A stretch of 64,000 bases of DNA from Comamonadaceae bacterium (GTDB lineage: Bacteria; Pseudomonadota; Gammaproteobacteria; Burkholderiales; Burkholderiaceae_C). Location of the stretch: contig JAIXUG010000005.1 in assembly GCA_027484105.1 (NCBI GenBank), positions 310,001-374,000 on the forward strand, given 5' to 3'. Under the pieces are notes generated by a model, which saw only the letters and a program-made list of their open reading frames with translations, did not search any database and had not been told where the DNA came from. This document shows positions 5,330 to 8,171 of the stretch, piece after piece. The first letter of the stretch is position 1. Every line of letters begins with the position of its first letter. A program made the translations under genes and the position numbers.

Positions 5330-5785
5330 TCATGGGTTCAATGCCAAGTGGTAGGCATGGTACTTTTGATCACGCGTCCAGCCCATGGACTCGTACAAGG
5401 CTTGGGCTGGCAAGTTATCCACATCCGTGTTCAAGGACAAGCGCACTGCGCCCATTTGAAGTGCATGGCCAGAAGCTGCTGTCAACAATCGCTCGCCTAC
5501 ACCCATACGCCGTGCGGATGGCGCCACATACAAGTCGTTGAGCACATAAACCCGCGCCATCGACACGGAAGAAAAACTCGGATACAGCTGGGTAAAGCCC
5601 ACGGCTTGCCCTTGTGACTCGGCCAACAGCACCACCGATTGCCCATGCTCAAAGCGCGCCTTCAGAAAGTTCCGTGCGGCCACTACATCACTGGCTTGAC
5701 CATAGAACTGACGATAAGCATCGAACAGGCCAACCACGGCATCGAGGTCGGCCAACACCGCTTGACGAATGGTGATCGAATTCAT
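5330..5785 (-). CDS. GNAT family N-acetyltransferase
   Basis: VLNDLYVAPSARRMGVGERLLTAA acetyl-CoA-binding motif; ALYESMGW near the C-terminus. Confidence 0.9.
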   Translation of the reverse strand: MNSITIRQAVLADLDAVVGLFDAYRQFYGQASDVVAARNFLKARFEHGQSVVLLAESQGQAVGFTQLYPSFSSVSMARVYVLNDLYVAPSARRMGVGERLLTAASGHALQMGAVRLSLNTDVDNLPAQALYESMGWTRDQKYHAYHLALNP

Positions 5786-6276
5786 GGGTTCTCCTGTTTT
5801 GCGGGTTGGACCTTGTAGGCTCGCATGCCCGAGACCACTTGCGAAGCCTCGGTGGTGTCATCTGGGTAAAAGCGGTAACTCGGCGCCACAATGGCAGAGA
5901 CGGATTTCACATGAATCACCAACACGCTGTGGATGGTGAAGCGCTGCCCCACCATGGCCAGCAATGGCTTGGCCCAGGTCGCAAATTCGGGGTCGGTTGC
6001 ACGCAACTCGCGGGCCCTGCCCAAAAGCTTGAACCCCTTTTGCACAAACACATCCACAAAACTCAAACACACCTGCGGCTGCTGCGCGATGTTGCGCGCA
6101 CTGATGGGCGAAGCAATGTGCGCCACCACCACATGCTGGTCGTCGGCAATGGCCCAGACTTCTTTGGGCGAAACATTAGGCTGACCCTCGGCATCCACGG
6201 TGGCCAGCCAGCACAGCACGCTGCGGTGGGCGGCTTCGCGGACGGCGTCAGTCAACATGACGGAAATTGGCCTCAT
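5782..6276 (-). CDS. Pyridoxamine 5'-phosphate oxidase-like (FMN-binding split barrel) protein
   Basis: SVLCWLATVDAEGQPNVSPKEVWAI and HIASPISARNIAQQPQVCLSFVD; overlaps the GNAT start. Confidence 0.8.
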   Translation of the reverse strand: MRPISVMLTDAVREAAHRSVLCWLATVDAEGQPNVSPKEVWAIADDQHVVVAHIASPISARNIAQQPQVCLSFVDVFVQKGFKLLGRARELRATDPEFATWAKPLLAMVGQRFTIHSVLVIHVKSVSAIVAPSYRFYPDDTTEASQVVSGMRAYKVQPAKQENP

Positions 6277-6431
6277 CTCTGACCTTCAACAGTTGTTGTC
6301 AACCACCTTCTCTCTGGCTCAGTGACATGAAGAAATTTGGTGAGAAGGTCGCGCGGGGGTGCAACAGAAATGGCTGCAATTAGAAACATGCCTGCAACGG
6401 CAAAGGTACTCAAGACGAATGAAAGTTTCAT
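6273..6431 (-). CDS. Small (52 aa) hypothetical protein with hydrophobic N-terminus; not in the supplied ORF track
   Basis: MKLSFVLSTFAVAGMFLIAAISVAPPRDLLTKFLHVTEPERRWLTTTVEGQR*; its TGA overlaps the ATG of the downstream gene (ATGA). Confidence 0.45.
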   Translation of the reverse strand: MKLSFVLSTFAVAGMFLIAAISVAPPRDLLTKFLHVTEPERRWLTTTVEGQR

Positions 6432-6446
6432 GAGTCACAGTCCGTC

Positions 6447-6518
6447 GGGACTAACGTTGAAGCTGAGCCGCGAGCTGCGGCCTGCCGACGGGAGTCGGCT
6501 CGAGCGACAGGTTAGAAC
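6447..6518 (-). other. attC-like integron recombination site
   Basis: Minus strand reads GTTCTAACCTGTCGCTCGAGCCGACTCCCGTCGGCAGGCCGCAGCTCGCGGCTCAGCTTCAACGTTAGTCCC: R'' box TTCTAAC, R' box GTTAGTC, internal GAGCCG/CGGCTC arms. The upstream ORF stop (TAA) lies inside the R'' box. Confidence 0.75.
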
Positions 6519-7000
6519 TCTGGCAACACACTAGACGAAATCTTGATCTTTGAGTTGCAGCCATTGCACAAGTACTCGGTTGAGCCATAGAAGTCGCCTT
6601 GGTTTTGGAGCAAAAACTTCTCTCCTTTGATGAAGCATCTGGCACAGACCCAGTGCGCCGGTTCGCCTTCGGAGAGATCCGCCTTAAGCGTATATGCAAA
6701 GATGCCTGGCTCTAGAGCCGTAAGCTGGTACCTCTGCCTCTCCTGCGACCACGCCTGCAACTGTGCGAGTTGATCGCGCAGCTTCCGGATTTCGTCTGCC
6801 ATTGCAGCCTGATCTGCGTTTGCAGCGAGCGCGCTGCTCTGCGCCGACAAGATTGAACTTTGCAGTTCGATTACCTTTCCCTGAACCTCGGCCATGGACT
6901 TGGTCTCAAGGAAGCCCTTGGCGATGTCCGAGGCAACTTTCAGGCCCGTGATGGTTCCTTGGATTAGCGACAAATCCATATGCATCCTCAGGAGTTCTAA
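6455..7000 (-). mobile_element. Probable single integron gene cassette (about 546 bp) without a nearby integrase
   Basis: Bounded by G|TTAGAAC upstream (6994-7001, minus strand) and G|TTAGTC downstream (6449-6455). The upstream GTTAGAACTC is the exact 10-bp reverse complement of GAGTTCTAAC at the end of the ORF, as expected for a linearised cassette. Confidence 0.65.
6512..6979 (-). CDS. Hypothetical protein: coiled-coil N-terminus plus C-terminal CxxC...CxxC zinc ribbon (cassette ORF)
   Basis: MDLSLIQGTITGLKVASDIAKGFLET...IRKLRDQLAQLQAWSQERQRYQLTALEPGIFAYTLKADLSEGEPAHWVCARCFIKGEKFLLQNQGDFYGSTEYLCNGCNSKIKISSSVLPEF. Confidence 0.8.
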   Translation of the reverse strand: MDLSLIQGTITGLKVASDIAKGFLETKSMAEVQGKVIELQSSILSAQSSALAANADQAAMADEIRKLRDQLAQLQAWSQERQRYQLTALEPGIFAYTLKADLSEGEPAHWVCARCFIKGEKFLLQNQGDFYGSTEYLCNGCNSKIKISSSVLPEF

Positions 7001-7328
7001 CGTGATGTAGACCGCAAAACCCGGTGGATACATCCGGGCAAAGTCAATACATAGCTTGGATGAAATGGCCGCAAGCCGCTTGCGTCTTGGCCTACGGGCT
7101 CATCCTTTGCGATTCCATACAGGTATAAATTTGTCATGAAACTCGGTGCCCCTTACTTGCAGTCCACCCGCTGACTCAATCATGTAATAAAGCGGTCAAT
7201 TAATACGCACTATAAATTCAAAAAAGATAAATATTAGTTTTAATGAACTCTTTTTATACAGGCAATTAATCGATGCAGTTGGTCTGCTACATCACCTCAA
7301 TGACATTAGGTATGGCTGAAATCGAAGC

Positions 7329-8171
7329 CTAGGCCGTCACGATCCAGCCTTCCAGCGGATCACACGGCGGCAAGCCGTATTGCGGGTGACCCGCTTCGTG
7401 CCGTTGCTGCGCCCAGGCCGCTTGCATCAGGCACAAGGTGGCGTCGAGGCTGTCGCCGCTCGCGTCATCGGCCAGACGCCCCAGCAGGGCGTTGCTGGCC
7501 ACCAGGCGCAGGCCCAGCCGGGTATCGCCGCGTTCCAAAGCGCTCAGCAGTTCACGACGTGCCAGCAGTCGCTCAGGGGTTTGTTTGGCTTTGTCGTCGC
7601 TCTTATAGCTTTGGTTGCCCAGCACCTCACGCGCCAGCAGGCCGGGGTAGGCCTCCAGCGCCACACGACGGGCATCGCCCGCATGCAAGCCGGGCAGGTG
7701 CACACCCGCTTGGCGCAACAGGGGCACGCCCGCGTGCAGCATGTAGGCCACGGGCGGGTTGACCCATTTCATGGACGGGCTGGAGCCTGCGGGTTGGTCG
7801 GCGGCGCGGTGGGCAAACTTGCCGCCTGCGGGGCGGGCGTTGCAAAAGGCTGCAAACTGCTCGCGAATTTGGGCGCGCTCCAAGGCGCAGTAATGGTCCA
7901 TGCAGGCGGCCCAGTCGGTGGGCCAGCCCAAGGTTTCGACCAGCTCGCGGGGCAGGCCAAAGGGCAAGTCAAAACCGCCCACCCAGTCGGCAGGCTGCGC
8001 CAACCAGTCGCCGAACGCGGCCAGGGTGTCAAAAGTTTGCAGCGCCTGCAGCTGCACCCTGCCTTGGCAGGCCTGGCCCAGCGCCAGCACAATGGGCTTG
8101 CGTTTGCTGGGGCTGCTGGAGAAGTCGCAGCCGATCAAGTTGGCGGGGGTTCCGGTGTTTGTCATGGCCAC
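7329..8171 (-). CDS. DUF429 family protein
   Basis: GCDFSSSPSKRKPIVLA...WVGGFDLPFGLPRELV...ALEAYPGLLAR...DSLDATLCLMQAAWA pattern. Confidence 0.8.
   Translation of the reverse strand: MAMTNTGTPANLIGCDFSSSPSKRKPIVLALGQACQGRVQLQALQTFDTLAAFGDWLAQPADWVGGFDLPFGLPRELVETLGWPTDWAACMDHYCALERAQIREQFAAFCNARPAGGKFAHRAADQPAGSSPSMKWVNPPVAYMLHAGVPLLRQAGVHLPGLHAGDARRVALEAYPGLLAREVLGNQSYKSDDKAKQTPERLLARRELLSALERGDTRLGLRLVASNALLGRLADDASGDSLDATLCLMQAAWAQQRHEAGHPQYGLPPCDPLEGWIVTA

Follow-up and report, generated by a model that had tools for sequence, protein, structure and literature searches.

The cassette array of an integron is commonly regarded as frozen once its integrase is lost. Pseudogenes make up about one third of intI genes (PMC2426708), mobilisation in trans is stated to be possible for arrays that lack an integrase (PMC12444791), and CALINs are established as a class (PMC9024848). 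The sedentary chromosomal integrons of the family studied here have an attI leader with direct repeats and L and R boxes, the 5′ end of a divergent intI, and attC cassettes in one orientation, all of which recur at the locus described below. With CALINs and single attC sites lacking an integrase (classes of IntegronFinder, PMC9024848) the locus shares an attC-bearing cassette and the lack of an integrase, and with the Xanthomonas integrons with inactivated intI (PMC12444791) it shares an ancestral chromosomal integron and repeated loss of intI.

The locus lies in a 64-kb stretch of DNA, referred to below as the window, from a Comamonadaceae bacterium (GCA_027484105.1, contig JAIXUG010000005.1, positions 310,001–374,000 of the forward strand). 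It was compared with the whole 3.1-Mb genome and with a set of 90 congeneric genomes, most of which are drafts. The locus is a decayed chromosomal integron with attI and one intact cassette, because the cassette sits behind a true attI leader and beside an intI relic. The integrase gene has been lost at the locus, and the capture site and one gene cassette have been kept. The array is also truncated at its other end, where a putative piece of a second cassette runs straight into the remnant of a dinB-like gene.

The attC site of the cassette, at 6449–6517 on the minus strand, is genuine. The R″ box TTCTAAC occupies 6517–6511 and the R′ box GTTAGTC 6455–6449, with the arms GAGCCG and CGGCTC between them; the site is an imperfect palindrome with R″/R′ and L″/L′ boxes, within the 55–150 nt of attC sites. 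The minus-strand ORF that starts at 6979 ends in a TAA (6514–6512) inside GAGTTCTAAC; CACGTTAGAACTC lies just 5′ of the ORF, and within the minus strand the 10-nt GTTAGAACTC matches the reverse complement of GAGTTCTAAC at every position. The letter-level claims of the initial annotation were all correct. The covariance search that it proposed was positive. Models were built from ten attC sites of related genomes, at other loci of the genus, with the window site and its close homologue excluded. The sequence-only model gave a single match in the 64-kb window, at this site (E = 4.7e-7), and the structured model scored it at 36.1 bits (E = 5.6e-7) and ranked it as the top match across the whole genome (E = 1.8e-5). 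The structure was entered by hand, because RNAalifold applied to the attC alignment gave no pairs. Folding of the attC DNA gave z = −3.06 relative to shuffles; the reconstituted circular site folds at −28.7 kcal/mol compared to −26.5 kcal/mol for the integrated site (RNA parameters), as expected from the earlier suggestion that the reconstituted R″/R′ boxes pair better. Across the loci, R″ agrees with the cassette's own start at 18 of 64, against 5.4 expected. A home-made attC scan was dropped in favour of the covariance models, since its 53 matches in 241 kb of cassette side against 19 in 189 kb of flank implied too many false matches.

The complete cassette is 546 bp long (7000–6455, minus strand), running from T 7000 (TTAGAACTC) to G 6455 (AACG), and both of its ends, read directly in the window, lie at the G|TTRRRY crossover point. 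It carries an intact ORF of 155 amino acids (6512–6979, minus strand), whose product is rich in Ala and Gln in its N-terminal half and has two CxxC pairs, zinc-ribbon-like, in its C-terminal half. We would guess from this sequence that it may be a zinc-ribbon protein. Searches of Pfam and PADLOC gave no match, and NCBIfam gave a weak match to TruD alone, far under the cut-off. A cassette gene 86% identical occurs in a two-cassette array on JADGNO010000110.1 (L004), with the same start and attC as the window cassette; more distant relatives of the protein were found at 49% between attC-like sites on a deltaproteobacterial contig (L005) and at 50% in L006. The L004 contig is titled Terracidiphilus; by eye it is Burkholderiales-like (thiolase genes) and may be misbinned, and its array stands behind a different attI-like leader.

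Upstream of the cassette lies the attI leader (6997–7260, minus strand). The 85 bp 5′ of the cassette recur at two other places in the same genome, each with another gene on the cassette side, and the aligned leader copies are alike for approximately 265 bp up to CTACATCACGTTAG, in which they end, and diverge beyond it. The core (6997–7057, minus strand) consists of the direct repeats ATGTATTGAC and ATGTATCCAC (consensus GATGTATCGAC and GATGTATCCAC), followed by an L-like box CTACAT and the R box ACGTTAG. A model of the leader matches 58 of 201 genomes of the family. In other genera (G062:C20, G063:C1, G066:C2, G070:C7, G211:C1, G193:C9 and G095) the leader lies directly against a divergent and often complete intI and overlaps its start, and for this reason we read the leader as the attI of chromosomal integrons in the family, plus sequence antisense to the 5′ end of intI. 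The window thus has attI immediately upstream of its first cassette. The leader was not found in the plasmid collection, and viral contigs with exact junction matches showed no leader by eye; a viral contig (L082:5194–5209, IMGVR_UViG_3300035670_003806) carries GTCTACATCACGTTAGGC, in a form identical to that of the attI end. A LexA-like box (CTGT/C N8 A/GCAG) near the intI start is kept in 28 of 65 leaders, for example L063, L154 and L155, and is lost in the window. Two further candidates within the leader were rejected: a small ORF, with the TAG of GTTAG as its stop codon, that does not stay in frame in all copies, and an apparent −10 box TATAGTG, which is the reverse complement of intI codons. 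A consensus scan covering sigma-70-like sites alone found no such promoter (Pc candidate) in 6250–7400.

Beyond the leader, and overlapping it, the plus strand at 7136–7329 reads MKLGAPYLQSTR*LNHVIK..., which aligns to codons 1–65 of intI. This is a decayed 5′ relic with several stops, and the later codons are lost. The claim that the window holds no integrase is therefore right for a functional gene; the decayed 5′ fragment had been missed. The alignment to the intI pseudogene of G298 stops at nucleotide 195/196 in the window, as it does in G011 and G259, and G025 and G002 have an identical fused junction between relic and host gene. No intI above the curated cut-off was found in the window's own genome, where the matches are all partial, reach about 80 bits at most and lie near codons 240–303, a type of match seen in nearly every genome searched. 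None of the 90 congeneric genomes has an intact intI; the cut-off is reached in two, and both genes are broken, in G298 by stop codons and a frameshift and in G278 by an internal deletion.

The host gene on the left flank (280 amino acids; 7329–8171, minus strand) is present in 83 of the 90 congeneric genomes, and in the window the relic of intI is joined to its stop codon. On the other side of the cassette, 6374–6454 (minus strand; TTAGTC...ATGAAACTT) can be read as the 5′ fragment of a second cassette, apparently cut by a deletion and without its attC. It runs into a 72-bp 3′ remnant of the dinB-like host gene (6302–6373, minus strand), 94% identical to G011, where the gene is longer. The common right flank of the locus is a pyridoxamine-phosphate-oxidase-like gene (5782–6276, minus strand); its name and that of the dinB-like gene were assigned by eye, with no family search behind them. 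The comparison with an empty locus, proposed in the initial annotation, gave a simple result: relatives free of the integron (G023 and G278) have plain host sequence here, consisting of the left host gene, a short intergenic stretch and the dinB-like gene. In L061 (G011:C18) the integron has two copies of the left host gene and of a cupin gene around it, which looks like a duplication of the region.

The window locus is one of several. Two more attI platforms without intI occur in the same genome, beside a hisF-like gene (L002/L059, C2:379981–380243) and beside a recQ-like gene (L003/L060, C14:136848–137049), both named by eye and each with cassettes. The leader is present in 44 of the 90 congeneric genomes (34 of the 56 good ones), in up to six copies per genome, and clustering of the upstream flanks indicates at least eight integron loci common to different species. 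The pattern of several leaders without intI extends beyond this genus, to G102 (five leaders) and G180 (three leaders) in other genera of the family, for which no intI match is listed.

At orthologous loci the flanks are mostly 83–97% identical, whereas a relationship between the cassette sides is almost never seen. At the window locus, five species (G000, G011, G259, G002 and G025) have one and the same junction, which joins the stop codon of the host gene to codon 65 of intI; in two others (G026 and G274) the arrangement differs and the intI relics are longer. Three of the five (G000, G011 and G259), a small set, keep attI, and their first cassettes are unrelated. The host-gene tree has no well-supported branches and does not resolve the five species as one clade, so the single origin of the common junction rests on its identical nucleotide position. 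The pattern of the window locus recurs at the recQ locus, where four species have a common scar and different cassettes; at two further loci (1 and 2), where tblastn detected no intI in 15 and 8 species, almost no cassettes are held in common. The change from shared to unrelated sequence falls at the crossover point G|TTAG (7000–7001, minus strand), with leaders that are alike within the locus to its left and cassettes that differ to its right. The grouping of leaders by locus holds as close as 15 bp to the junction (the nearest neighbour is from the same locus in 79–91% of cases, compared to 16% when shuffled), and the first 80 bp of the cassette show no real gain in likeness within a locus (0.22) over that between loci (0.20). 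Other cassettes at the window locus also start exactly at G|TT, in agreement with the clean insertion originally suggested. Whole cassettes recur at other loci, with their ends at crossover points: the agreement between L163 (locus 0) and L188 (locus 5) stops precisely where attC does, and they diverge beyond it, and cassette 1 of L062 is 93% identical to cassette 2 of L066 in the same genome. The combination of a common scar, unrelated cassettes, and leaders that are locus-specific up to the crossover makes it likely that cassette exchange continued after the local loss of intI.

We therefore consider it probable that the window holds a decayed integron whose present cassette entered attI after the local intI had been lost, by means of an IntI from elsewhere. 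A deletion would have removed intI beyond codon 65, and another would have cut off the end of the array. The cassette would have been placed at the G|TT of attI by integron-type recombination (attI × attC), most likely after the loss of intI, because species with the identical intI junction carry unrelated cassettes at the same attI. The IntI may have come from another integron locus in an ancestor, from a plasmid, or from a transient donor. Site-specific exchange by an integrase encoded away from the locus is the simplest reading of the data, and from it we infer that IntI acted in trans and that the attI in the window is still usable. Against this, there is no present-day source of IntI among the 90 congeneric genomes. 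Alternatively, the exchange may have taken place by homologous recombination, if the crossover with the donor fell within the final few bases of attI.

Larger exchanges between species appear unlikely. The whole locus might have been swapped by homologous recombination, for example after natural transformation, from donors bearing intI, in which case the integrase never acted in this lineage. The identity of the orthologous flanks would permit it; however, leaders that remain locus-specific to approximately 15 bp from the junction mean that an upstream crossover would repeatedly have needed a very short stretch, and an intI-bearing version of the window locus is not known. We also think it improbable that the loci decayed vertically, with cassettes gained under each locus's own intI, independent decay of these genes, and no later movement. 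The lengths of the intI relics vary between loci and species, implying many separate and mostly independent losses, as this would require, and in Xanthomonas, strains that share an intI lesion usually carry identical arrays (PMC12444791). In the present genus, by contrast, the species that share one junction and keep attI differ already in their first cassette, and the recQ locus repeats this pattern; loci 1 and 2, where tblastn detected no intI, have hardly any cassettes in common between species. There is very little chance that the 265-bp leader is a small MITE-like mobile element that spread through the genome carrying cassettes: there are several copies per genome at different places with similar left ends, and about 33 bp of the recQ 3′ end form a near-direct repeat on either side of the recQ copy, but the upstream ends of the copies are intI relics of varying length with no fixed end, and the copies sit at loci conserved across species. 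Finally, a lone cassette at a secondary, non-attI site (a SALIN or attG-type insertion), which the initial annotation offered as one option and which would fit the single complete attC in the window, is refuted by the conserved attI leader, which abuts intI in complete integrons, and by the intI relic. A putative second-cassette fragment also lies next to the cassette, and the other option of the annotation, the visible part of a decayed array, is the correct one.

The preferred reading, of a cassette acquired after the local loss of intI, can be extended to the genus, although here we are tentative and would give it somewhat less than an even chance. The genus may carry attI platforms without intI at several conserved loci that kept exchanging cassettes by means of an integrase supplied transiently or in trans, or of a recombinase of another kind; capture sites would then outlive a resident integrase and work without one. 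attI persists at several loci in about half of the genomes of the genus, with an intact intI in none, and the system is a natural test of how long attI stays usable after integrase loss. Should exchange in trans be confirmed, a genome in which a search for intI finds no integron could nevertheless acquire cassettes, and attI would then be a better marker than intI.

The literature that we searched contained no paper on attI platforms without intI at several loci. Compared to the sedentary chromosomal integrons of the family, the window locus has an intI reduced from a gene for a full integrase to a 65-codon relic with stops, a shortened array, and several platforms in the same genome. It differs from CALINs in keeping attI and the intI relic, and its one attC is below their default threshold of two. 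In SALIN or attG insertions the single attC is outside any attI, whereas the window cassette lies in attI. The Xanthomonas integrons have one main locus (ilvD), at which the same lesion usually goes with the same array, whereas this genus has several loci, at which the same lesion goes with different cassettes. Integrons with a broken intI are thus well known; what is new is the combination of several conserved attI loci, loss of the integrase throughout a genus, and differing cassettes behind one intI scar.
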